From contig JAKCFJ010000001.1 of NCBI GenBank assembly GCA_025041175.1, positions 1,939,526 through 2,003,525 of the forward strand: a stretch of 64,000 bases of DNA, read 5' to 3'. This document shows positions 35 through 63,372 of the stretch, piece by piece. A program made the position numbers and the translations under genes. Origin of the DNA: Halobacteriales archaeon YIM A00010 (GTDB lineage: Archaea; Halobacteriota; Halobacteria; Halobacteriales; Haloarculaceae). The notes under the pieces are model-generated. The model was given only the letters and a program-made list of their open reading frames with translations. It was not told the DNA's origin and searched no databases. The first letter of the stretch is position 1. Every line of letters starts with the position of its first letter.

Positions 35-1213
35 TTACTCCCGTTCGGCGTCCGCTTCCCTCTGTGCGCCAGCGGTGGCGTCGGAATCGAGTCCGTGCGT
101 GATCGCCTCGCCGCTCGCGGTGTCGAAGAGGTGGATCCGCGACCGATCGAGGACGAGACGAACGGGTTCGTCCTCCTCGACATCGGTTTCCGGTGGGACG
201 CTTGCGAGCAGCTGTGTGGCGTCCGGATCGCTGGCGGTCTCGTCCGGTTCCGCGGTCTCCGAGCAGAGGAAATAGACGAACGTCTCATCACCCATCGGTT
301 CGATCACGTCAGCAACCGCGTCGATCGCCGTGGACGGGACCGACAGACCGCTACCGCGTTCGGAGTCAGCGAGATACACGTCTTCGGGCCGAACGCCCAG
401 CGTTACGGCATCAGGACGGTCCGGCGGTGGATCGAACGAAACCCCGATGGCCCTGGAGCCGAACCCCTCGTCCGTCATCGTTCCGTCGATCAGATTCATC
501 CCTGGTGAGCCGATGAACCCCGCGACGAACAGGTTTCGGGGTTCGTTGTAGCAGGCCAGCGGCGGGGCGAACTGTTGGATCTCCCCGTCGTTGATGACCG
601 CGATGCGGTCGGACATCGTCATCGCCTCGGCCTGGTCGTGGGTAACGTAGACGACCGTGGTGTCGAGCTGCTTGTGCAGCCGCTGGAGTTCGGTGCGCAT
701 GTGGCTGCGGAGCGACGCGTCGAGGTTGGCGAGCGGTTCGTCCATCAAAAAGACGTCGGGATTGCGGACGATGGCGCGAGCGATGGCGACGCGCTGGCGC
801 TGACCGCCCGACAGCTCCTCCGGCTGACGGTTTCTCATCCCCTCCAGCTGAACGATCTCCATCGCGCGATCGACGCGTCGTTCGATCTCTGCGGTCTCGT
901 AATCCCGCAGGCGCAGCCCGAAGCTGACGTTCTTGAAGACGTTCAGGTGAGGAAACAGCGCGATGTTTTGGAACACCATCGCAATTCCCCGGTCTTTCGG
1001 CGGAAGCGTCGTCACCTCCCGGTCCCCGATGTGAACCGATCCGTCAGTCGGCTCCGTGAGCCCCGCGATGATCTCTATCGTGGTTGACTTTCCACACCCC
1101 GACGGGCCGACGAGCGTGACGAACTCACCGTCGGTGACGCGAAGACCCAGCTCGTCGACTGCGACGACATCTCCGTAGCGTTTCGTGACGTGATCGAGTG
1201 TGAGGCGTGCCAT
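35..1213 (-). CDS. Sugar-type ABC importer ATPase (MalK/UgpC class)
   Basis: This is the cytoplasmic ATPase that powers the importer encoded just upstream. The protein has 392 residues. Walker A GPSGCGKS lies at about 36-43, the Q-loop near 82, the LSGGQ signature at 134-138, Walker B FLMDEP at about 155-160 and the switch histidine near 192. The C-terminal third has the length and position of the TOBE-type regulatory region of this class. A longer reading frame begins at 1255, but that start would run into the permease gene. The ATG at 1213 leaves a 4-base gap and begins at the usual family N-terminus (MARLTLDHVTKRYG), so I use it. It is the last gene of a four-gene operon. The sugar or polyol substrate cannot be told from sequence. 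Confidence 0.93.
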   Translation of the reverse strand: MARLTLDHVTKRYGDVVAVDELGLRVTDGEFVTLVGPSGCGKSTTIEIIAGLTEPTDGSVHIGDREVTTLPPKDRGIAMVFQNIALFPHLNVFKNVSFGLRLRDYETAEIERRVDRAMEIVQLEGMRNRQPEELSGGQRQRVAIARAIVRNPDVFLMDEPLANLDASLRSHMRTELQRLHKQLDTTVVYVTHDQAEAMTMSDRIAVINDGEIQQFAPPLACYNEPRNLFVAGFIGSPGMNLIDGTMTDEGFGSRAIGVSFDPPPDRPDAVTLGVRPEDVYLADSERGSGLSVPSTAIDAVADVIEPMGDETFVYFLCSETAEPDETASDPDATQLLASVPPETDVEEDEPVRLVLDRSRIHLFDTASGEAITHGLDSDATAGAQREADAERE

Positions 1214-1217
1214 GGTT

Positions 1218-2150
1218 TCACTCTTTGAGCGCGCCAGCGGTGAGTCCGCTGACAATCTTCTCCTGGGCGACAGCCACCAGAATCGCCACCGGAACCACCC
1301 CGATGAGACTGGCGGCCCCCATCAGATTGTACAGTTGAGTATACTGCGTTTGGTAGTTGCGTATTCCATACACTAGTGGCGACCAGTCGGTGAACTCGCC
1401 GCTAGTCATCAGAAACGAGAAGAAGAACTCGTTGTACACGTAGATGAACGTGAGGACGGCGACAGTCGCCACCCCGGGGGCTGACAGCGGAATGATCACG
1501 CGGACGAGCGCGCCGAGTCTCGTCGTCCCCTCGATGCGCGCGGCGTCCTCCAGCCCGTCGGGGATCTGAGCGTAAAAGGTAGTGAGGATGAAAATCGCCA
1601 ACGGCATGAACAGCGCGGTAAAGGGCGGGAGCAACGCGGCAGGCGTGTTGAGCACGTTGGGGCTGCTGAGGCCGAGCAGGGAGACGTTGCCCGCGAACAG
1701 GCGGTACAACGGGACGAAAAACGCTGCCGGCGGGAAATAAGAGATCGCCAACACCACCAACAGCAAGGGTCGTCGACCGGGGAACTCCAGCCGACCGAAC
1801 ACGTATCCCGCGAGGCTCGCAACCACGAGGACAATCGCCGTGGTGCCAAGCGCGAGCATGATGCTGTTTGCCACGTACATGTGGAACGGAACCACCTCGA
1901 ACACTTCGATGAACGACTGCCAGTGGAAGCCGTTGGGAGTGAGTCCCACCGTTGTCAGTAGCTCCCGTGGCGTCAGCGCGATGACCAACAGCCAGTAGAG
2001 GGGAAACAGGGTGCCAAAGAGGAATCCGAGGACAGCGACGTAGAACAACACCCGATAGAGGCGTTCCGGTCGGCGGATCGCGCGGTGTACCGTTCGTTCG
2101 ATCCAGCCTGATTCCGATTCGCCGTCAGCATCCGGCGTCGGCTCACTCAT
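1218..2150 (-). CDS. ABC importer permease (MalG/UgpE type)
   Basis: This inner-membrane permease subunit has 310 residues. A soluble N-terminal stretch of about 35 residues precedes about six hydrophobic segments. The EAA loop that contacts the ATPase is visible near residue 200 (EDAARIEGTTRLGALVRVIIP, showing the EAA...G pattern and the IP that follows). It sits between the first permease (1-base gap) and the ATPase (4-base gap), so the four genes are probably one transcript. The family is binding-protein-dependent sugar transport. Substrate specificity is unknown. Confidence 0.92.
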   Translation of the reverse strand: MSEPTPDADGESESGWIERTVHRAIRRPERLYRVLFYVAVLGFLFGTLFPLYWLLVIALTPRELLTTVGLTPNGFHWQSFIEVFEVVPFHMYVANSIMLALGTTAIVLVVASLAGYVFGRLEFPGRRPLLLVVLAISYFPPAAFFVPLYRLFAGNVSLLGLSSPNVLNTPAALLPPFTALFMPLAIFILTTFYAQIPDGLEDAARIEGTTRLGALVRVIIPLSAPGVATVAVLTFIYVYNEFFFSFLMTSGEFTDWSPLVYGIRNYQTQYTQLYNLMGAASLIGVVPVAILVAVAQEKIVSGLTAGALKE

Positions 2151-2151
2151 A

Positions 2152-3132
2152 TCAAACCACCTCCTGGGCGTACCGAACGATGTAGACGGAGACGAACACG
2201 CCGATGATCACGGCCGTGATGAACGCGATCGCGGCGGCGGTCGCGTACTGGTTCGTCGAAAGGAGGGTCTCGACGACGAGACACGACAGCGTCGGCACGG
2301 TCGAACAGCCCGCGTCCGAGGCCACGACCAGCCCGTAGACCCGCATCGCGCCGATCGTCCGGAACAGAACGGCGACCAGAACCGCCGGGAGGATGAGCGG
2401 GAGCGTCACCCGCCTGAACCGCTGCCAGCGCGACGCTCCGGCCACCTCCGCCACGTCGTACAGATCCCGGTTCACGCTCTGTAGCCCGGCGAGAATCAAC
2501 AGCGCCATGAAGGCCGACGTCTTCCAGATGTCCGCCACGATCACGATCAACAGCGAGCTGGCGCTGTCGTTCAACGGCTGGTCGGCCAGTATCCCGAGCT
2601 GTTGGAGTGGGGCCGACGCAAAACCCACGGAGGGATCGAACATGAGATAGAAGATCATCCCTTGGATGACGACCGGTACCGCCCACGGCAGGATGATGGC
2701 GACCCGTACCCACCGTCGACCCCGAAAAGACCGATCGAGTATCAGGGCCTGGCCGAAGCCGAGGACCGTCTCGAACGCCACCGACACCACGGTGAACAGG
2801 AACGTCACGATGATGGCGCTCTGGAGGGGGTAGTCCAGATCGAACAACGGCCGGACCAGCTCTTTCTCCCCGGTGAGGACCCCGACGTACTGATCGAATC
2901 CGACGAACTCGCCCAGCGGTTCGGTCAGACTGTTCGCGTGCAGCGACATCTCGAACGTGCTCGCTAGCGGCCAGATCGCGACCAGGCCGAGGATGAGAAA
3001 GACTGGTCCCAACAGCAGGTACGCGTACTGGGTTTCGCTCAGCCCCTCGATCCAGCGCGTAAGAAAGACGATCGGACCCGAACGTCGACGCTCCTCCGAA
3101 TCCGTCCCCGTGGACGCTGGCTCCGTGCTCAT
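2152..3132 (-). CDS. ABC importer permease (MalF/UgpA type)
   Basis: This is the first membrane subunit of the importer, 326 residues from the ATG at 3132. The frame is open back to 3444, but that extension is arginine- and glycine-rich, has no membrane character, and would overlap the binding-protein gene, so I reject it. About six transmembrane segments follow a hydrophilic N-terminus. The EAA loop is at YDVAEVAGASRWQRFRRVTLP. A short loop contains two cysteines (AGCSTVPTLSCLV) that could be oxidised on the outer face; this is inference. The gene pairs with the second permease one base downstream. Confidence 0.9.
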   Translation of the reverse strand: MSTEPASTGTDSEERRRSGPIVFLTRWIEGLSETQYAYLLLGPVFLILGLVAIWPLASTFEMSLHANSLTEPLGEFVGFDQYVGVLTGEKELVRPLFDLDYPLQSAIIVTFLFTVVSVAFETVLGFGQALILDRSFRGRRWVRVAIILPWAVPVVIQGMIFYLMFDPSVGFASAPLQQLGILADQPLNDSASSLLIVIVADIWKTSAFMALLILAGLQSVNRDLYDVAEVAGASRWQRFRRVTLPLILPAVLVAVLFRTIGAMRVYGLVVASDAGCSTVPTLSCLVVETLLSTNQYATAAAIAFITAVIIGVFVSVYIVRYAQEVV

Positions 3133-3191
3133 CCCTTCCCCCCCGCGCGAGCCGGTCTCGTTCGTCGTGAGCAGTCGCGTGTCATCGTCGG

Positions 3192-4649
3192 TTATGCGGC
3201 CTCGTTCTCGATCGATTGTAGCCGTTCTTGGAGCTGGGTCACCGCGTTTGTGGCGGGTTTGTCCCCAGCGGCGGCGGCGTTGACCTCCTGGTAGATGGCT
3301 GTTGCCTGCTGGGGCCAGACGGCTGTCGCCGGGCGTGGCATCGCTCTCGTTCCGGCGAACTGGAGCGCCTCCATGTACCGACCCATCGGTTCCTGTTCGG
3401 TGGCCGCCGCCGAGTCGTACAGCTCCGGTTTGGGCGGCATCCACCCCGTGATTCCCAACAGCCCGAGCTGGAAGTCGTCCGTCATAGCGACATCGATGAG
3501 TTCGAGCGCTGCATCCGTCTGCTCGGTGTTGGTGTTGACCGTCATGTGCCAGCCCCCGAGCGCGGCGGTCGATCCGCCGGTGCCTTGTGCCTGTGCCTCT
3601 TCCTCCGAAACCGCGTACGGAAGTGGCATTACTCCGTAATCAGTTCCGAACGCGTCCTCGGCCGCCAGCGAGGCAATACTGTACGGCCAGTTGCGCATGA
3701 ACACCGCAGTCCCGTCTTCCATCGCCCCGAGCGTGTCCTGTTCCTTCCACGAGAGCACGTCGGTCGGAGCGATCGATCCCGCGTAGTCCGTAAGCGTCTC
3801 GTTGTCGGTATCGCCGTTGATGAACTGTCCGACCATGTCGATCGCGTTGATCACCGGTTGGGAGTCGACCGAGATCGGGCGCTCCCCGATCGGACCGAAC
3901 AGGTTCTCGCGGCCACCGAAGTACGCGCCGCCCCACGAACTCATGAACTCGTTGAACGTACAACACGCCAACCCCTCGTAGGTGTCGAACTGGAAGACGA
4001 ACCCATGGTCCGCGTCGGTCCCATCGCGCACGTCCTCGGCGATCGTCGAGAACCGTTTCCACGTCATCGGAGACGTCGCCCATCCTTCGCCCTCCGGATC
4101 GTAGCCGGCGTCAGTCACGAGATCCTTCCGGTACTGCATCGTCGGAAAATCGGGGAACAGCGGAACACCGTAGAGATCGCCCGTATCAGGATTTCTTGCC
4201 GTTTCGACGCTAGCCGTGAAGTAATCGTTCTCGATCGTCGACAGCTGATCGCCCGACAGCTCCTCCGTGAGGTTCAGTAGGTTCTCTCCAACGATGAACG
4301 GAATTGTCCATCCGTTGTCCATCAAGAACACGTCGGGATTGCTCTGGCCGGATTCCAACAGCTGGGTGTAGCGTTGGCGGCGCTGGGTCGAATCCTGACT
4401 GCCCTCCACGAAATCGATCGTGATGTCATCCGAGAGCCCCTGGTCGTGAAACAACTGCTTTATCTCCTCCCCGTTCTCTCTCACCTGTACCGGATCGAAC
4501 CCGAATTGGACAGTGTTCCCATCGTCGTCCCCATCGCCGTAAATACACCCCGCGAGCCCGACGACAATGCTCGATGCACCGACCGACCTGACGAACCGTC
4601 GGCGTGAGATTCGGTGCCCCGGACCTGTGGATGTGGTATCGGCCGACAT
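3192..4649 (-). CDS. Extracellular solute-binding lipoprotein of sugar ABC importer
   Basis: This 485-residue family-1 solute-binding protein captures the substrate outside the cell. The N-terminus has a twin-arginine signal (SRRRFVRSVG), a hydrophobic core and a lipobox ending LAGC, so it is probably Tat-exported and lipid-anchored, as is common in haloarchaea. A start at 4685 is possible, but the ATG at 4649 (MSADTTSTG) puts the Tat motif at the usual distance. A 59-base gap separates it from the first permease. It is the first gene of the operon, with an AT-rich promoter stretch upstream and a divergent stress-protein gene beyond. Confidence 0.92.
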   Translation of the reverse strand: MSADTTSTGPGHRISRRRFVRSVGASSIVVGLAGCIYGDGDDDGNTVQFGFDPVQVRENGEEIKQLFHDQGLSDDITIDFVEGSQDSTQRRQRYTQLLESGQSNPDVFLMDNGWTIPFIVGENLLNLTEELSGDQLSTIENDYFTASVETARNPDTGDLYGVPLFPDFPTMQYRKDLVTDAGYDPEGEGWATSPMTWKRFSTIAEDVRDGTDADHGFVFQFDTYEGLACCTFNEFMSSWGGAYFGGRENLFGPIGERPISVDSQPVINAIDMVGQFINGDTDNETLTDYAGSIAPTDVLSWKEQDTLGAMEDGTAVFMRNWPYSIASLAAEDAFGTDYGVMPLPYAVSEEEAQAQGTGGSTAALGGWHMTVNTNTEQTDAALELIDVAMTDDFQLGLLGITGWMPPKPELYDSAAATEQEPMGRYMEALQFAGTRAMPRPATAVWPQQATAIYQEVNAAAAGDKPATNAVTQLQERLQSIENEAA

Positions 4650-4688
4650 ACTCAGTACCTGACTCGTGTACTCACATATAATCATTGG

Positions 4689-4700
4689 TTTATAATAAAA
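4689..4700 (-). promoter_or_regulatory. TATA element of the ABC importer operon
   Basis: On the minus strand this reads TTTATTATAAA, about 40 bases ahead of the binding-protein start codon. It would place the transcript start about 15-20 bases before the gene. The surrounding 4675-4725 stretch is very AT-rich for this genome. Confidence 0.5.
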
Positions 4701-4797
4701 TTTATCAAATATATCTATTATTTCTGTCAGCGCGTATCGGATTACACACGAGTTGGGTCAGCGACACCTTTATGAATCGTGAGAAAGCTGATACCGT

Positions 4798-5244
4798 ATG
4801 GCACTCGAAACCGTTCTTCTCGCGGTAGGGGGAGGTGACGCCGATCGTACCGATCTGCTCGCCGAGACCGTAGTGGACATCGCTGGCCCGGCCGACGCGG
4901 CGGTTACACTCGCACACGTGTTCACAGGCGAGGAGCTCGAAAACGCCCGCAATCAGCTGGATTACGATCCGGACAGCGCCGTCGATCCGGACGAGGTAGC
5001 GAGTCGGCACGCGACGACCCGCTCCCTCGAAGAGAACCTGTCGAACGCCGGTGTGGCACACTCGGTTCGCGGGTCTGTCGGTCCACACGGGGAAGCCATC
5101 GTCGAGCTCGCCACAGACGTTGGGGCGGATCTCATCGTGGTCGGGGGTCGAAAGCGGTCACCGACCGGGAAAGCCGTCTTCGGAAGCACCGCTCAGGAAG
5201 TGATGTTGAACGCTCCGTGCCCGGTGACGTTCGTTCGAGAATAG
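4798..5244 (+). CDS. Universal stress protein (UspA domain)
   Basis: This single-domain, 148-residue UspA protein is of normal family length. It starts with the beta strand ETVLLAVGGGDADRTD and ends with the family nucleotide-loop pattern (GGRKRSPTGKAVFGSTAQEVMLNAPCPVTFVRE), whose G-2x-G-9x-G(S/T) spacing suggests ATP binding. It is cytoplasmic and its specific role is unknown. It is divergent from the sugar importer and 98 bases before gfcR. Confidence 0.9.
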   Translation: MALETVLLAVGGGDADRTDLLAETVVDIAGPADAAVTLAHVFTGEELENARNQLDYDPDSAVDPDEVASRHATTRSLEENLSNAGVAHSVRGSVGPHGEAIVELATDVGADLIVVGGRKRSPTGKAVFGSTAQEVMLNAPCPVTFVRE

Positions 5245-5342
5245 GAAAGGCGATCGGACCGACCGTTTGCCTCCGATCGTCGCGGGAAAACGCTGTCGCC
5301 ACCTCGAATGTTTATGGCCGTAGCCACGAAACCTCACAGCAT

Positions 5343-5981
5343 ATGAAGAACGTCGACGATCTAATCGAAAGCGCGGCGGATCTCACCCAGCGGGGGTTAT
5401 CGAACGGCGAGATCGCGGACGAGCTGAACGTCTCGCGGGAGACCGCCAGTTGGCTCATCGAACGCGGCAGCGTCGAAGAGACGACGCCGGGAACGGCGGC
5501 CCAGGTCGGCGGTCCACACGACATTCACGTCGACTGGAGCGCACTCGGACGCGATAGCCGCCGCCTGTCGTACGCCGGTGCGGCGATGGCCGACCTCCTT
5601 ACCAAGGAAGGCGATGGGGTGGATCTCACGGTCGGTATCGAGAAGGCGGGAACGCCGCTTGCAACCACGATCGCACGAGAGCTGAACACCGATCTCAGCG
5701 CGTACAACCCCCGAAAACACCAGTGGGAGGAGGGCGACATCGAGGAGCTGGAAGGGTCGTTTTCGCGGAACTTCGCCACGATCCGCGACCGCGACTGCTA
5801 CATCGTCGATGACATCATCACGAGCGGAACGACGATGACCGAGGCGATCGAGGCCGTGCGGGCCGAGGGAGGCTCACCCGTGGCTTGCGTGGTGCTCGCC
5901 GACAAACAGGGCGTCGAAGAGCTCGAAGGGGTGCCTGTGTTCTCTCTGCTCCAGGTTATCCGCGTGGGCAACGACGCGTGA
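5343..5981 (+). CDS. gfcR: GfcR-type regulator (HTH plus phosphoribosyltransferase fold)
   Basis: This 212-residue protein has an N-terminal helix-turn-helix (about residues 15-42, GLSNGEIADELNVSRETASW) joined to an orotate phosphoribosyltransferase-like domain. The PRPP motif CYIVDDIITSGTT is at 152-164. This is the architecture of haloarchaeal GfcR, formerly annotated pyrE2, known in Haloferax volcanii as the activator of glucose and fructose breakdown genes. An upstream in-frame start at 5217 overlaps the stress-protein gene and is rejected. The ATG at 5343 starts at the family's usual MKNVDDLIESAADL. The sugar importer nearby is a plausible target, but this is inference. Confidence 0.88.
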   Translation: MKNVDDLIESAADLTQRGLSNGEIADELNVSRETASWLIERGSVEETTPGTAAQVGGPHDIHVDWSALGRDSRRLSYAGAAMADLLTKEGDGVDLTVGIEKAGTPLATTIARELNTDLSAYNPRKHQWEEGDIEELEGSFSRNFATIRDRDCYIVDDIITSGTTMTEAIEAVRAEGGSPVACVVLADKQGVEELEGVPVFSLLQVIRVGNDA

Positions 5982-6072
5982 AGGGTGGGTGGGAACGGTG
6001 TGCAGTGAACGGATGAAAGGGAAGGGCTTTTGTTAGCCTACGAAATACGATTAGATGCACGCGCCACACCGT

Positions 6073-6157
6073 GCGTGGGTAGCCAAGCCAGGCCAACGGC
6101 GCAGCGTTGAGGGCGCTGTCCTGTAGAGGTCCGCCGGTTCAAATCCGGTCCCACGCA
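6073..6157 (+). tRNA. tRNA-Leu (GAG)
   Basis: The gene is 85 nt and intron-less. The acceptor arms GCGTGGG and CCCACGC pair fully, with discriminator A. The anticodon arm is CAGCG-TTGAGGG-CGCTG, giving anticodon GAG. A long variable arm follows, as expected for leucine, then the T-arm around GGTTCAAATCC. No CCA is encoded. Its 3' end is copied repeatedly downstream (see the repeat entry). Confidence 0.95.
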
Positions 6158-6192
6158 GTGAGGAGCGAAGCAACGAACGAGTCGGACCGGAT

Positions 6193-6454
6193 TTGAAGCA
6201 GGGAGCAGCTTGCTGCGACCGAGGTTCAAATCCGGTCCCACGCACCATTCTGCACGAACGAAATGAGTGTTGTGAGTGTGCGGGCCAGGTTGAAGCAGGG
6301 AGCAGCTTGCTGCGACCGAGGTTCAAATCCGGTCCCACGCACCATTCTACACGAACGAAATGAGTACTGTGAGTGTGCGGGCCAGGTTGAAGCAGGGAGC
6401 AGCTTGCTGCGACCGAGGTTCAAATTGGATTGGTCGACCGTCCCGGTCCCACGC
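6193..6454 (+). repeat. Tandem 97-bp repeats made from the tRNA-Leu 3' end
   Basis: Two full 97-bp units (6193-6289 and 6290-6386) and a third broken unit follow the tRNA. Each contains GGGAGCAGCTTGCTGCGACC, then the T-loop and acceptor strand GGTTCAAATCCGGTCCCACGCA, then a spacer with GCACGAACGAAATGAGTG. In the third unit 17 extra bases (6426-6442) split the tRNA-derived part between CAAAT and CCGGTCCCACGC. The short GCAGC-TT-GCTGC palindrome gives each unit a tRNA-half-like look, but there is no 5' half, so these are not tRNA genes. The rest of 6158-6609 holds no gene. Confidence 0.9.
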
Positions 6455-6609
6455 GTTCCAATTGGTTCGACGCCCACCGTGGTGCTCTGGTCCCTCGCGA
6501 GATCTCCAACACAGACAGCACCCACGCAAACTCCTTCCGGAACACCAACCCAACAGCCGTGAGACTGGAGAGCGACAAGCGCAAGGCGCTCTCGCGTCTG
6601 GGTTCAGGT

Positions 6610-7167
6610 ATGCACCAGCGGATCAAGCGGAACATCCCAGTAGTGACTGGGGTGTTAACAGTACTCTCGCTCGCGTTCGTGTTCGGGGCAGTCCTTCGAG
6701 TCATCCCATCAACCGTGTTTCCGCACGTCTCCAGCCTCATCGCGGTCATTCCGCATCTCAACGCGGTCATCAGCCTCACCGCCATCGGATTGATCAGCGC
6801 GGGGTGGTATTTCATCAGAACCGGTGCGGTCGAGAAACACCGCTTTGCAATGGTTGCGAGCTTCGGGCTGTTCGTCGCATTCCTCGCGTTGTATCTGTAT
6901 CGGGTGATCCTCGAAGGTCCCACGACGTTCCTCGGGCCGTCGGTGGTCAAAACCTACGTGTATCTGCCGCTGCTGGCCGTCCACATCACCCTCGCGATCG
7001 TTTGCGTCCCGCTGTTGTACTACGTGTTGTTACTCGCGGTCACGCGACCCGTTTCCGAGCTGTACGAGACGAACCACCGGCGCGTCGCCCGGATCGCCGC
7101 GCCGCTCTGGCTCGTCTCCTTTTTTCTCGGCGTCGTCGTGTACGTGCTGTTGTATGTGGTGTACTAG
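6610..7167 (+). CDS. DUF420 family membrane protein
   Basis: This 185-residue membrane protein has about five transmembrane segments and histidines near helix ends, as in DUF420 proteins. Related bacterial proteins act in haem-copper oxidase assembly; that role is not shown for haloarchaea. The frame is open back to 6430, but the extra 60 residues come from the tRNA-tail repeat region and are not membrane-like. The ATG at 6610 (MHQRIKRNIPVV) is preferred. It stands alone, downstream of the tRNA-Leu repeat block. Confidence 0.8.
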   Translation: MHQRIKRNIPVVTGVLTVLSLAFVFGAVLRVIPSTVFPHVSSLIAVIPHLNAVISLTAIGLISAGWYFIRTGAVEKHRFAMVASFGLFVAFLALYLYRVILEGPTTFLGPSVVKTYVYLPLLAVHITLAIVCVPLLYYVLLLAVTRPVSELYETNHRRVARIAAPLWLVSFFLGVVVYVLLYVVY

Positions 7168-7347
7168 GCGTGTCACGCGTGTGGAACAGCGACTGACGCT
7201 AGGGACAGCGAAAAACAATGCTGAAGCTGTGAGCGCACGACACAAGAGCACTGTTCAGCCGGGGGTTTGCCACACACGCCGATCGTTCCGGTTGCCGGTA
7301 ACCGTCGAAGAGAACGCTTAACCCCGCACTGTCCCCAAACCACGAGC

Positions 7348-7656
7348 ATGGACTGGCCCCACGACCCGGACGCCGAGGAGGGAAGCGAAGGGATGCGCAA
7401 GTACGGACAGGCGATCCTCGCCAAGAAGGTCGACGAGGACGAGGATTTTCCCCTGTCGAAATCCGAATTCCGAGAGCGCGTCGGCGATCATCCGGTCCGC
7501 ATCGATCACGAGACCGTCGTCAGCGTCGAGGACGTGCTTTCGGGCGTCGATGAAGCGGAGTTCGAAGACATACAGTCGTTCAACCAGGCGATGGGCGAGG
7601 CGCTGCGCAAACAGGGGTACTGGCCCTACGAGATCGGTGGCGCTGGGAGCGACTAA
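7348..7656 (+). CDS. DUF5785 family small acidic protein
   Basis: This small soluble protein of 102 residues begins MDWPHDPDAEEGSEGMRKYG, which I recognise as the start of a family conserved only in haloarchaea. It has no cysteines, membrane segments or catalytic motif, and its function is unknown. A longer frame from 7267 is possible, but the ATG at 7348 matches the family start and lies about 26 bases after a TATA-like GCTTAACC (7315-7322), which fits a leaderless transcript. Confidence 0.82.
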   Translation: MDWPHDPDAEEGSEGMRKYGQAILAKKVDEDEDFPLSKSEFRERVGDHPVRIDHETVVSVEDVLSGVDEAEFEDIQSFNQAMGEALRKQGYWPYEIGGAGSD

Positions 7657-7744
7657 CCGTCCCACCGATCACACTCGTCACAAGCAGCTCGTCCCGTGTG
7701 AACGCGCGCCACACTTATTCAATCAGCACCGCGTACGTGTTGGT

Positions 7745-8104
7745 ATGGCAGTCGATTCCCCGAGTCCAACCGACGCCGGACACAGGTTGCCCGAGACGGT
7801 GGTCGAGGAACTGCTCGCAGAACCGTATCGACGCGCTGTGCTCCGATCGCTCCGCACTCACGACGGATCGATCACCGACAGACGTCTCGCCACCCTCGTC
7901 GTTGCGCGCGAACGATCCATCCACCCCGACGCCGTCCCACCGCGCGAGCGAGACCGCGCTCGGGAACGCCTCTACGAACACCACCTCCCGAAGCTCACCG
8001 CGACTGGCGTCGTACAGTACAACTCCCGAAACGCGAGCGTCGAACTCGACGAGGCCGCCGGCCAACTACTCGATCGGCTTCGACCGATCGAATCTGAACC
8101 GTGA
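7745..8104 (+). CDS. Haloarchaeal winged-helix-like protein (DUF7344 type)
   Basis: This 119-residue soluble protein has the pattern of haloarchaeal DUF7344-like regulators: a first helix LLAEPYRRAVLRSL, then a region ending YEHHLPKLTATGVVQYNSRNASVEL, which looks like the recognition helix and beta wing. It probably binds DNA, but its target is unknown. The start is the ATG at 7745, with a TATA-like ACTTATTCAATC about 30 bases upstream. Frames extending upstream overlap the previous gene and are not credible. Confidence 0.75.
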   Translation: MAVDSPSPTDAGHRLPETVVEELLAEPYRRAVLRSLRTHDGSITDRRLATLVVARERSIHPDAVPPRERDRARERLYEHHLPKLTATGVVQYNSRNASVELDEAAGQLLDRLRPIESEP

Positions 8105-8214
8105 ACGATAACCCTCCGCGAGGTCCCAAGAGCGCCGCTCATGCGGAATCAATGACTCATCCGCTCATCAGCCGAACCCCACCTATTTAGCCCGTTCCAC
8201 CGCTCAATCACGGT

Positions 8215-8760
8215 ATGGTCGGTCGCTACTACGAGGAGTTCGAGATCGGCGAGACGATCGAACACGAGAAACGACGAACGATCAGCGAAAGCGACAACCA
8301 ACGGTTCTGTGACATGACCATGAACCAGCAACCGCTGCATCTCGATCGGGAGTTCGCGGGCGAGACGCAGTTCGGCCGGCGGCTGGTCAACGGCCTGTAC
8401 ACCATGTCGCTCGCCGTCGGGCTAACCATTCCGGACACCACGGACGGTACCATCGTCGCCAACCTATCCTACGACAACGTCGAACACCCGAATCCGGTGT
8501 TCCACGGGGACACGCTCCGCGCACAGTCGACGGTGACGGACAAACGCGAAACTTCCGATGGAGAACGAGGGATCGTCACCATGCACGTCGAGGCGTTCAA
8601 AATCGACGGCGACAGCGAGGCGCAACGCGCCTCAAGCAGCGAGGAACAACGTTCCTCGGGCAACCGGCCTGCGGCCGGTGACAGTCGGGCGGAGCCCGAC
8701 GACGACGACGAAACACTCGTCTGTGACCTCGACCGAACCGCACTCTCGTTGAAAAAATAA
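8215..8760 (+). CDS. MaoC-type hot-dog dehydratase with an inserted hairpin-encoded segment
   Basis: This hot-dog fold protein belongs to the MaoC/enoyl-CoA hydratase-2 family and probably acts on acyl-CoA esters. The N-terminal part (YYEEFEIGETIEHEKRRTISESDNQRF) and the motif NQQPLHLDREFA are typical. Residues about 133-164 (SEAQRASSSEEQRSSGN and on to DSRAEPDD) are low-complexity and polar, are encoded by four short palindromes, and split VEAFKIDG from DDETLVCDLDRTALSLK, which would otherwise be continuous. The frame stays open, so the gene may still make protein. The start at 8215 follows a TATA-like CCTATTTAGCC at about 8182-8192. Confidence 0.85.
   Translation: MVGRYYEEFEIGETIEHEKRRTISESDNQRFCDMTMNQQPLHLDREFAGETQFGRRLVNGLYTMSLAVGLTIPDTTDGTIVANLSYDNVEHPNPVFHGDTLRAQSTVTDKRETSDGERGIVTMHVEAFKIDGDSEAQRASSSEEQRSSGNRPAAGDSRAEPDDDDETLVCDLDRTALSLKK
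8617..8700 (+). repeat. Four consecutive 7-bp/3-nt hairpins inside the MaoC gene
   Basis: Four perfect palindromes stand in a row at 8617-8633 (GAGGCGC-aac-GCGCCTC), 8641-8657 (GAGGAAC-aac-GTTCCTC), 8663-8679 (ACCGGCC-tgc-GGCCGGT) and 8684-8700 (GTCGGGC-gga-GCCCGAC). Each has a 7-bp stem and a 3-base loop, all in the coding frame. The regularity indicates a distinct inserted element. Confidence 0.92.
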
Positions 8761-8785
8761 CATTAATGCACAGATATAGACAGAT

Positions 8786-8802
8786 TTAATAAAATATATT
8801 AA
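8786..8802 (+). promoter_or_regulatory. AT-rich TATA region before the helicase gene
   Basis: TTAATAAAATATATTAA ends 18 bases before the TTG at 8820. A haloarchaeal transcript would start at or just before that codon, consistent with a leaderless mRNA and with the non-ATG start chosen for the helicase. Confidence 0.5.
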
Positions 8803-8819
8803 ACAGTATCTTGTGATAC

Positions 8820-11800
8820 TTGCGTGTGGACGGAAGAAAAATACTGCGAAAGGGGAAGCGAATAACGTGGAGAACAGGAATCGTTTTGGTTGGAATCGCA
8901 GCCATAGTGTACTGGTTTCTCACACAGGTGGGGGTCGTGCTTGCGATCTCTCCGGCGCTCGAATGGATAACGGGAGTGCTGGCGTTTCTCTCCGATCCAC
9001 TGGTGTTGGCAGCGGTTCTCGTAGTAGTGGGAACCGCTGCGGTCGTGGTGTGGCAGCGGGTCGACGACGTTGGGGCCGCGACGGTGGAGCTGTTTGCCCG
9101 GTTGAAAGAGCGGCTCGGCTTCGATAGTCCGGTCGACGTGCGCGGCTCACTCGAACACGAGGATGTTCGTTGGATCGCCCACCACACCCGCGATGGAGTG
9201 ACGACGATAGAACACCGGGCGTGTCCGAACTGTGCCGTGGAACTGGAACAGGAAACGATCCCGTACACGGATCTCAATCGACCGAACACCCCGATAACGG
9301 CGGACGAGACGACACAACAGAGAGAGGAACAAGCGTGGGAGAACGTATTCGGGCGGGAAAAGTCCGGCTCCGAGGAGTTGACTGAAGCGCTCGTCTGTCC
9401 TCGTGAGACGTGTCGGTTTTCGATTCCCGGCGAAAAACACATCAAATCCGGCGAAACCGCCGTGAAAAAACAGTTCCGGATGCATTTCAGGCGAATGCGC
9501 GATGGGAGCAACGATCCGATCAGCAAGTGGCACCATCGCGCCGCTGAACGCCTCGATTCCGATCTCGAACCAACACCAGCAGACGTCTGGGATGCCTACG
9601 CACGCGAGTGTGACGACGAGTCCGTGCCGTTGAACCAATCGTTCGGTCAGGGGCTGCCCGGCAAGGACACGACCATGACGTGCCACGCCCTCAAACTGCA
9701 CAAGAATAATGCGGCAGGGGTCGACCAGCTCATCGAGCTCACCCCGGCCGACTTCGACAAGATACTCGCGTGGCTCGTTCGATCGGAGTATCTCGAAACG
9801 AGACGGGAGATAACAAGGAAAATGAACGAGGAGATCGAACAGTGTCAGTCGACACTTACTACCCTCGAACACGAGCGTGGTTCGGTCGTCCAACAGGTTC
9901 TGGGCCACCGGTACAACCGCACCGAGCCACATATCGATCTCGAAAACGCCGAACACGAACTGGATGGGGCAAACGAGTCCGTTCGTGAACTGCGCGAGGA
10001 TCTCGATTTAGACTATCTCCCCGCCGATCATCAACGGTGGCTGTCAGCGTGTGAAAACGGTGTTGTCGATGCTGTGGAGTACGTCGTGCAACTGCGGGCG
10101 TTCGGAGAGTACCGCGGAGAGATCGAACCGACCATCGAGAAGTTTGAGGAGCGCTTTGAGCCGTACAAGGAGGGTGAAAACTACATGACAACACCCGACC
10201 AGAAATTCCTCGAACAGAGATGCTCGACGATCTGTCAGCTGCTGTCGGATCTTCACCGAGAGGTACAACTCGAACTGCTGCCACAAGAGATGACCGAGTG
10301 GGCCGGAACGCAGAAAGCCCGATTTACCGAACGTTCCCGTCGGCTTCCGACCTACAACAAGGAGTTTGTTGCGCACGAACGAGAGCAGTACGCGGACCTC
10401 TTCGAGACCGAACATGGGCCGCTCAACGAGGAACAACAGAAGGCGGTCGTGCGTAACGATCGGCACAACCTCGTGGATGCGAGCGCCGGTACCGGAAAAA
10501 CGCTAACACTCACCTACCGCTTTCTGTATCTGTACAAGCGAGGCGTACCCCTTGATGACATCGTAGCTGTCACCTTCACTGGAGATGCTGCCGACGAAAT
10601 GGAATCACGGATCGCTGAGGCGCTTGAGGGGGTTGAGCCACACCAACTGAACATCTCCACGTATCACTCATTCGCGGGCAAAATCGTTGCGGACTCAGTA
10701 AGCGGTCCCGTCAACACGGATCTAGATGGTGCCCACGAGCAGTTTGTTGAGAGGATTCTCAGCGGTGATAACAAGCTCAAAGACCGACATCCCGAAGCGA
10801 TGAGCGAATTCGAAAAGTACCACTCGGACTTTCTCCGGGACGAAGAAGACTACATAGACAGACAGAAAGACACGGATCAATCGAGACACGAGTTCCTTTG
10901 CGAGCAGTATTCGGAATTTCTAGAGACTGCACGCAACTTCGATCAGACACCGGATGAGATACGCAGTCGACTTTCAAGGATCAAACTTCTCCAACACCAC
11001 TTCGGGAAGGCCGCTTGTGAGATCCTCAGAGCATTTCTTGACCACGCCGAAGGGACCGACGAACCAGTGGATTTCCACGATATGGTGAAGGGCGCAACCC
11101 GACTCGGAGGGGAGGCCCCCGAACATTTCAGTCAAGAATACCAACACATCCTCTTTGACGAATTTCAGGACGCGGATGGATCTGTTCTCGAATTCGTCAG
11201 TATGTTCCTCGGGGGATCGGGAGACACCCGCCTGTTCGCCGTTGGTGATGATTGGCAGAGCATCTACGGCTTCAAAGGATCGGACCCACGCTATTTCATC
11301 GAGTTTGAAGAACAGTTTGAGGGCGTCAAACACACGCAGCTCGCGGTCAATTATCGGTGTCCGCCGACGATCGTGGAGGCGGGCGAGGAGCTGATGGCCA
11401 ACAGCGAGGACGACCAGAACGAGAAAGACGTCAGGGCGTTCTCCGACGCGCGTGTTACGCCGGAGGTACACAAGCTGAGCGGAGTCTATGAGAACCGAGC
11501 CGCCGTGTACGCCACAAACCTCATCGAAAATGCACTCTCTGATGAGGATATGACTCCAGAGGATGTGATGGTACTCTCGCGCAACGATGGGGCAAGCCCG
11601 TTCATGAACCGTATCCGTTCACAACTGGATGAACGCGAGATTCCACGGATACCAGTCGATGAAGACGATGAAATTGGCGTTTCAGACGGTGTCCAGGTAC
11701 AATCCATTCACAAATCGAAGGGCACAGAAGCCGAATGCGTGATCCTGGTGAATGCAACGGACGATGAGCACCACGGATTGCCACAGCAGAAAAGAGAGAA

Positions 11801-60184: not shown

Positions 60185-61030
60185 ATGGCCGAACTCCGAC
60201 GGATCACGACCTATCCGATCAAAGCCCTCGATCCATTCGAGAGGACAGAGGGACGGATCACTGAGGGAGGAACGATCGAGCACGATCGCGAATACGCCAT
60301 CCTTGCCAAACCAGCTGATGAGCCCTATGAGCCGGAAACGGAATCCGCTTCGAGTGGCGACTACATCAATGGGAAGCGGACCGACGCTGTCCACCGATTG
60401 CGCTCGCTATTCGATCCAGGGGCTCGCACTCTCACGCTGCGTGTTCGAGGCGAGATCGACTCCCGGACGTTCGATCTCGAAGACCGAACCGAGTTGAATG
60501 CGTGGCTGACCGACTATTTCGACCACCCGGCAAGTGCCCGTCGATACACGGCTAGTGGTCATCATGATCTCCACAAACACGATATTTCGGGACCATCGGT
60601 CATCAGCACTGCGACGCTCCGCGAAGTTGCATCGTGGTTCCCCGATATCGGTCTCGACAGCATACGCCGACGATTTCGCGCAAACCTCGAAATCGATGGC
60701 GTGCCCCCGTTTTGGGAGGATCGTCTCGTTGCGGATCACGGTGAGGCGGTTGCCTTCCGCATCGGTGATGTCAAGTTGGAAGGTATTGAACCATGTGAAC
60801 GATGTGTCGTTCCCTCGCGGGATCCTGACACCGGAGAGGTGTACGACGGTTTTAGTCGAAGATTCACACGCAAGCGCGGAGAAACCCGTCCCGAGTGGCT
60901 CGATAGCGATCGCTTCGATAATGATTTCCGCTTGATGACGGTAACAAATATCCCTGAGAGTGAGTGGGGTAAGACGCTTCACGTGGGAGACGCCGTTGAG
61001 GTCATCGGAACCCACCCATACACATTCTAA
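60185..61030 (+). CDS. MOSC-domain molybdenum-cofactor-type protein
   Basis: This 281-residue protein has an N-terminal beta-barrel MOSC-N part (YPIKALDPFERTEGRIT) and a C-terminal MOSC domain with two cysteines, C204 and C207 (CERCVVPSRDPDTGE). In mARC-like and YiiM-like enzymes the cysteine holds the molybdenum cofactor; here the surrounding motif is good. The reaction is unknown, possibly reduction of N-hydroxylated compounds. It is flanked by decayed genes on both sides. The start is the ATG at 60185. Confidence 0.86.
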   Translation: MAELRRITTYPIKALDPFERTEGRITEGGTIEHDREYAILAKPADEPYEPETESASSGDYINGKRTDAVHRLRSLFDPGARTLTLRVRGEIDSRTFDLEDRTELNAWLTDYFDHPASARRYTASGHHDLHKHDISGPSVISTATLREVASWFPDIGLDSIRRRFRANLEIDGVPPFWEDRLVADHGEAVAFRIGDVKLEGIEPCERCVVPSRDPDTGEVYDGFSRRFTRKRGETRPEWLDSDRFDNDFRLMTVTNIPESEWGKTLHVGDAVEVIGTHPYTF

Positions 61031-61686: not shown

Positions 61687-63372
61687 ATGAACGAGCTGTT
61701 GTTGCAGGTCGATCCGACGGCGGTGACCGAGTCGGTCAACTACGTGTGGGTGCTCGTGGCGACGTTCCTGATCTTCTTCATGCACGCCGGCTTCGCGATG
61801 TTGGAGGCCGGGCAGGTGCGTTCGAAGAACGTTGCCAACCAGTTGACGAAGAACATGCTCACGTGGAGCATCGGCGTCGTCGTGTTCTTCCTGATCGGTG
61901 CGGGTGTCGAGGCGTTCACTGCCACGCTGACGAGCAGGGGTGAGTACGGCGGTTTCTTCGCCGTTCTCTCTCCCGAACACACGCTGGGCTGGGTCGACTG
62001 GCTGTTCGGCGCGGTGTTTGCGATGACCGCCGCGACGATCGTCAGCGGGGCGGTCGCTGGGCGGATGAAGCTGCGGGCGTACGTCACCTACACCGTGGTG
62101 TTGGCGGCGGTGATCTACCCGGTCGTGACGGGACTCACGTGGACCGGTGGCTGGCTCGACAGCTTCGGGTTTACCGACTTCGCGGGCGGAATGATTGTCC
62201 ACGGAATGGGCGGCATCGCTGGGCTTACGGCCGCGTGGATCGTCGGACCCCGGATCGATCGGTTCAACGAGGATGGCACAGCGAACGTCATTCCGGGCCA
62301 CTCGATCACGTTCGCGGTGTTGGGGACGTTGATCCTCTGTTTCGGCTGGTACGGGTTCAACGTCGGGACGGCCGCCGCCCCGCTTGCGGAGGGAGCAACG
62401 GAGCTCGCTGATTTCGGTTTCGTCGGTCGTGTGGCGCTCACGACGACGCTCGGGATGGCTGCGGGTGCCATCGGTGCTGCCGGTATCTCACTCTGGAAGA
62501 CGGGGAAGGTCGACACGCTGTACGTCGCAAACGGCATGTTGGCCGGACTGGTCGGCATCACGAGCAACACGAACCTGATCACGTGGTACGGGGCGCTGTT
62601 CATCGGTGCCATCGCGGGCGCACAGCTCCCGATCGTGTTCGAGACGATCGAAAAGCGGCTGAACGTCGACGACGTGTGCGCGGTCTTTTCGGTTCACGGC
62701 AGCGCGGGCGTCATCGGCGCGCTCCTGGTGGGCGTTCCGGTGTTGACCGTTCCGGACGCAGGCGTGAGCATCACGAGTCAGCTGGTCGGGGTGGTCGTCA
62801 TCGCCGGATGGACCGTGCTCACCACGGCGCTGGTCTTCGGCGTGCTGAAAGCCATCGGGCAGATCCGCGTCTCCCAGGCCCACGAGCACGACGGGCTCGA
62901 CATCAGCGAACACGGCGTGGAAACGTATCCGGAGTTCGGACCGGAGGAGACGCCGGCGGCCGACGGGTCTGGCGTCGTCGCCTCGGGCGATGGCACGCCC
63001 CGGACCGACGGTGGACAGCCCAACGAGAGTGAAATCAAGATGGTTATGGCGTACGTCCGTCCGGACAAACTCGCCGCGGTCAAACGCGCGCTCGCCGACG
63101 TCGGTGCGCCATCCTTGACCGTTACGAACGTCTCCGGTCGTGGTTCTCAGCCCGCGAAAAAGGGCCAATGGCGCGGCGAGGAGTACACGGTGGATCTTCA
63201 CCAGAAGGTAAAAATCGAGTGTGTCGTTGCCGACGTGCCGGCCCAAGACGTCGCAGACGCGATCTGTGACGCCGCAAGAACCGGTGAGCCTGGCGACGGG
63301 AAGGTGTTCATCCTCCCTGTCGAGGCAGCCACACAAATACGAACCGGCAACACCGGCCACGACGCGGTCTGA
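61687..63372 (+). CDS. Ammonium transporter with fused C-terminal PII (GlnK) domain
   Basis: This 561-residue protein consists of an Amt channel (residues about 1-410, eleven membrane segments) followed by a linker (about 411-445) and a complete PII signal-transduction domain (446-561). The Amt part shows the twin pore histidines, VHGMGG and VHGSAG. The PII part has [19 protein letters not shown], the T-loop around [23 protein letters not shown], and the B-loop [19 protein letters not shown]. Normally GlnK is a separate gene that plugs the channel when nitrogen is plentiful. Here the plug is covalently attached. No separate glnK is in the window. Confidence 0.93.

Follow-up and report, generated by a model that had tools for sequence, protein, structure and literature searches.

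In the usual description, PII is a soluble hub with many targets. The locus studied here, which lies in a window of 64,000 nucleotides (the whole stretch of DNA that was analysed) from Halobacteriales archaeon YIM A00010, raises the question of whether an ammonium channel (Amt) and a PII (GlnK) regulator are truly encoded as one chain, and what a PII tied to its channel might do. The original prediction of an Amt channel, a 35-residue linker and a full PII domain within one ORF was borne out by the reading frame itself, by Pfam searches and by alignment, and the Amt-PII fusion is confirmed as an observed feature of this locus. Its parts are laid out as follows:

61687..63372, + strand: Amt-PII fusion gene, 561 aa, a single uninterrupted ORF from ATG to TGA (PF00909 and PF00543)
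61744..62928, + strand: Amt channel domain, residues 20-414 (PF00909, E 1e-99; alignment to solved structures)
62929..63033, + strand: acidic/Gly-rich linker, residues 415-449, in which RTDGG (439-443) is a (T/A)DGG-type motif; mostly within a stretch of pLDDT below 50
63034..63369, + strand: PII (GlnK) domain, residues 450-561 (PF00543, E 2e-24; PDB and structure matches)
63136..63177, + strand: T-loop, the 14 residues 484-497, with Q488 (= GlnK Q39) and R496 (= R47), by alignment to E. coli GlnK and 98 fusions
63280..63303, + strand: B-loop TGEPGDGK, residues 532-539, ATP-phosphate binding, with K85 replaced by E (alignment to E. coli GlnK)

The Ammonium_transp profile (Pfam PF00909) was matched over its full length (1-399 of 399) by residues 20-414, with 334 bits against a curated cut-off of 23.2, and the Amt part also scored above the TIGR00836 cut-off (348.5 versus 343.3 bits). 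The P-II profile (Pfam PF00543) aligned with residues 451-554 (profile 2-101 of 102; 86.6 bits against a cut-off of 25), and the best PDB sequence match of the PII part was Hfx. mediterranei GlnK2 (4ozj, E 1e-59). According to Pfam, the C-terminal domain consists of PII only, without a fused enzymatic transducer domain. An AlphaFold2 monomer model, for which an alignment of 51 fusions served as input, predicted two folded domains (mean pLDDT of 77) and gave scores below pLDDT 50 for both the linker (405-446) and the T-loop (483-504). Structure comparison of this model matched residues 10-412 to Amt structures, including AmtB as solved together with GlnK in the AmtB-GlnK complex (Z 44). It also matched residues 445-561 to Hfx. 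mediterranei GlnK2 with ADP, AMP and ATP (Z 16.0).

The source genome (5.97 Mb, 99.7% complete, with Halocatena as closest named relatives at 87% and 83% identity) contained exactly two PII and two Amt matches. Each PII match shared a long frame with one of the Amt matches, so that both copies are fused. A search for separate glnK genes, proposed along with the original prediction, found no free glnK/PII gene among all PII matches in the genome. Because PII is encoded here only as a fusion, the C-terminal part qualifies in sequence and fold as a PII domain but not as a free PII protein, and it falls outside the class of free, diffusible PII trimers. The second fused copy heads a cluster on the - strand (L207, G000:C4:76000-90000, 568-10058) that includes an Lrp/AsnC regulator overlapping the end of the fused gene, a glutamine synthetase two genes downstream of the fused copy (one of two glutamine synthetases in this genome), a nitrate-reductase-like molybdopterin oxidoreductase and an MFS transporter. 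The window copy is flanked by a MOSC-domain protein upstream (60185-61030) and a pyruvoyl-dependent arginine decarboxylase downstream (L208:6747-7646), neither of which is an Amt/PII partner gene.

Among the 80 best named relatives, a set that was picked by match to the fused query and is thus biased towards fusions, 74 carried Amt and PII in one frame, and the remaining six were all Haloferax. Two haloarchaeal families were then surveyed from complete PII lists, with fusions called from open frames of at least 551 aa and checked on sampled loci. The first family had PII fused only in 49 of its 56 PII-bearing genomes, split only in five and in both forms in two, and the second had PII fused only in 20 of 27, short only in three and in both forms in four. 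Taken together, 69 of the 83 PII-bearing genomes of these families encoded fused PII only. Listed PII outside the haloarchaea, in a phylum-wide sample, occupied frames of ~104-172 aa and is thus free. Across much of the haloarchaeal class, fusion is the prevailing arrangement, and many genomes there are without free PII. In the genomes of L045, L051, L056, L067 and L079, which hold both free and fused PII, a split amt-glnK pair was located directly upstream of the fused gene. At L020, L028 and L089, the fused gene was closely followed by another PII frame of 160-254 aa, placing fused and short PII in tandem.

Fusions with the same domain order and of similar length were also encountered in Bacillota, namely in Enterococcus raffinosus (WP_222227351.1, 591 aa) and Ruminococcus albus (WP_013483901.1, 601 aa). 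Both reside on large plasmids (L203 and L204, respectively) and are annotated only as 'ammonium transporter'. Since their identity to the present gene is ~32-36%, and since their linkers are longer and unlike, they probably represent separate, independent fusion events.

The history of the haloarchaeal fusion was followed in a tree of the Amt plus PII sequence, with the linker left out, which was rooted on methanogen-type relatives. This tree contained two haloarchaeal Amt paralogue lineages: lineage A, weakly supported (41), with 26 of 28 rows split, and lineage B, which holds the window gene and has a support of 100, with 76 of 93 rows fused. Split relatives were mostly nested within the fused lineage or were members of another paralogue. 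Parsimony with equal costs, or with gains made dearer, yielded 3 gains and 8 reversions, while charging reversions at double cost yielded 14 gains and 2 reversions. The event count thus depends on the cost weights, and what is firm is the existence of one large lineage in which fusion predominates. Within this old haloarchaeal Amt lineage fusion is the default state, most simply explained by one gain there and several reversions. Split amt-glnK pairs, in which the gene order (amt, then glnK) is the same as the domain order of the fusion, usually have an overlap of 4 or 8 bases between the two genes. In Haloferax, lineage-B amt and glnK stand in one shared frame with one stop codon and 3 bases between them (L043, L059 and other Haloferax loci), which is what the renewed splitting of an earlier fusion should leave behind.

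An alignment of fusions across haloarchaea, likewise suggested with the original prediction, was made on 98 fusions and showed the pore residues and most ligand-site residues to be invariant. Specifically, F111, W152, D164, H172, F224 and H337 of the Amt part correspond to E. coli AmtB F107, W148, D160, H168, F215 and H318, and these six pore residues (Phe gate, W, D and twin His) were invariant in 98/98 fusions; the position of AmtB S219 was Thr in all haloarchaeal rows. In the PII part (where the fusion protein residue equals 449 plus the E. coli GlnK number), the equivalents of Q39, R47, K58, T83, G87, D88, G89, K90 and R103 were invariant in all 98 as well, that of G84 was kept in 96, and that of Y51 (Y500) was Tyr in 90 and Phe in the rest. 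K85 and R101, which have become E and Q in the window PII, are also replaced in most free haloarchaeal GlnK. Column entropy of the T-loop in fusions was mostly equal to or lower than that in split PII; relaxation of the T-loop in fusions was rejected, since the fused form shows no less conservation of this loop than the split form. The T-loop variant singled out by the original prediction is the ordinary haloarchaeal GlnK T-loop; it is not peculiar to the fusion, as free GlnK has the same. The crystallised Hfx. mediterranei GlnK2 (4ozj, 4ozl, 4ozn), with 78% identity to the PII domain, has Ser in place of G493 (AKKSQWRG) in an otherwise identical T-loop. Unlike the fused PII, GlnK2 is a free protein from its own gene, and Haloferax relatives have the in-frame stop between amt and glnK.

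Across the family, the linker is a flexible tail of ~20-74 residues, acidic and rich in Gly (leaving out one value of 460 that stems from a domain-boundary failure). It corresponds to the cytosolic tail of Amt: one to several (T/A)DGG motifs were present in the linkers of 98/98 fusions, and many tails of split Amts (among L005-L172) had them too. The glutamine synthetase in the second copy's cluster (L207:5515-6918) also carries a TTDGG, at its N-terminus.

The conserved pore and PII residues, together with the co-precipitation of free Haloferax GlnK with AmtB1 after ammonium shock (PMC3831643), lead us to regard the fusion as probably being an assimilatory ammonium channel with GlnK/PII tethered to its cytosolic C-terminus, i.e. 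a tethered Amt-GlnK plug. In such a complex, three chains would form the Amt trimer, with the three PII domains gathered beneath it as a PII trimer. At high ATP and 2-oxoglutarate (nitrogen hunger), ligand-bound PII would tuck its T-loops away and hang on the flexible linker. Upon arrival of ammonium and the ensuing drop in 2-oxoglutarate, the T-loops would extend and R496 would enter each pore exit, so that the channel would be shut at once, with no diffusional search by PII. We infer the trimer-on-trimer docking within one complex, the gating and the ligand logic from separate Amt-GlnK pairs elsewhere. The AmtB-GlnK pairs (E. coli 2NUU/2NS1; Hfx. mediterranei AmtB1-GlnK1/2) belong to the same families and have the same conserved pore and T-loop residues, but they are separate chains, whereas the present gene encodes one covalent chain in a genome without free PII. 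Gating at a fixed 1:1 ratio by the fused trimer would be plausible; trimer-to-trimer binding is also seen in the E. coli pair, whose proteins are separate. The accompanying claim that the fused PII could not be released was too strong, because a flexible linker of this length range would let PII undock while remaining tethered.

In the two surveyed families, the attached Amt is the sole sure PII partner in those genomes with fused PII only, and the T-loop nonetheless stays conserved. The gene content of the second copy's cluster, with its Lrp-type regulator, glutamine synthetase and nitrate-reductase-like genes, was counted in favour of the tethered plug. Counted against it were the receptor type of the closest Amt structures and the replacement of K85 and R101.

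The tether would be compatible with other PII partners as well, among which glutamine synthetase is a known target of Haloferax GlnK (as cited in a passage of PMC11218638). It might accordingly be asked whether the fused PII mainly serves such other targets, above all glutamine synthetase, recruited near the channel exit so as to couple uptake to assimilation. Direct regulation of glutamine synthetase by Hfx. mediterranei GlnK, which passages of PMC11218638 and PMC3831643 cite, would fit this reading, as would the presence of two glutamine synthetases (one near the second fused copy) in a genome that lacks free PII, and the unrelaxed T-loop. However, docking to the channel explains T-loop conservation equally well, and in the other named loci the 3 kb around the fused gene held no glutamine synthetase gene, so fused amt and glutamine synthetase were not seen to be linked in named relatives at that distance. 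We deem it rather unlikely that such targets are the main role of the fused PII.

Another reading takes the Amt part for an ammonium receptor that does not transport, like Ks-Amt5, with the fused PII as its output or signal-integrating domain. The closest solved Amt structures, by both sequence and fold, were indeed the receptor-type Ks-Amt5 (6eu6) and Sd-Amt1 (8qj3/8qj4/8qpf), whose depositions name them sensors or receptors and which are Amts with an extra C-terminal signalling sequence (a histidine kinase in Ks-Amt5). The pore of non-transporting Ks-Amt5 is closed by F27, Y30 and F34 (PMC5764959), and F36 of the fusion is bulky like F27. The other two of these three bulky residues are absent here, however, with L39 and Q43 taking their place, and the partner is PII instead of a histidine kinase; PII is not an enzyme and is without an obvious output of its own. 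Moreover, Haloferax amt genes act as uptake genes induced by nitrogen starvation (PMC3831643; PMC6801745), and the split haloarchaeal Amts tested carry the same F, L and Q at these three positions. As all tested haloarchaeal Amts, fused or split, share F36/L39/Q43, the receptor question is unrelated to the fusion. Receptor status is not favoured on these residues, and we consider this reading unlikely.

Free GlnK might also be made from the fused gene, via an internal translation start or via cleavage of the linker. In split pairs, glnK begins at an ATGA overlap or close by, and 73 of the 98 fusions have an in-frame ATG at PII position 3. Yet Met occupies that position in 36 of 62 free GlnKs too, which do not normally start there, and 25 of the 98 fusions have Leu instead; within the linker, an in-frame ATG or GTG occurs in only 29 of 98, at scattered positions. 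A conserved internal start for free PII was thus rejected, as no linker position is conserved and the position-3 ATG is nearly as common in free GlnK, and production of free GlnK from the fused gene seems highly improbable. That an assembly or sequencing error joined two separate genes, which the original prediction had named as what would undo it (along with separate starts in relatives), deserves practically no credence, given the second fused copy in the same genome, the independently sequenced single-ORF fusions among named relatives, their recurrence in dozens of genera, and the alike make-up of the linkers.

The fusion is not a new kind of protein, since its two domains come from textbook families and public annotation already shows the joined gene; the gene is an ordinary member of an architecture that is widespread and apparently unstudied. 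No papers on natural Amt-PII fusions were found in the open full-text literature, and earlier remarks may exist in subscription papers. The fusion is also a caution for annotators: the annotated Bacillota fusions bear the plain label 'ammonium transporter', and one paper (PMC11218638) regards an annotation that joins amtB2 to glnK2 in Hfx. mediterranei as a misannotation. For structural and kinetic studies of Amt gating, the fusion would fix the stoichiometry.

The main interest lies in the many genomes without any free PII. Haloarchaea in which PII occurs only fused to Amt, with a T-loop that has not relaxed, make the question 'does PII need to be free?' testable. More speculatively, and with little confidence on our part, many members of whole haloarchaeal families may have abandoned PII as a diffusible hub, their only PII being fixed to Amt, with the fusion acting as a membrane platform that would both gate ammonium entry and, by way of its tethered PII, control glutamine synthetase at the channel exit.
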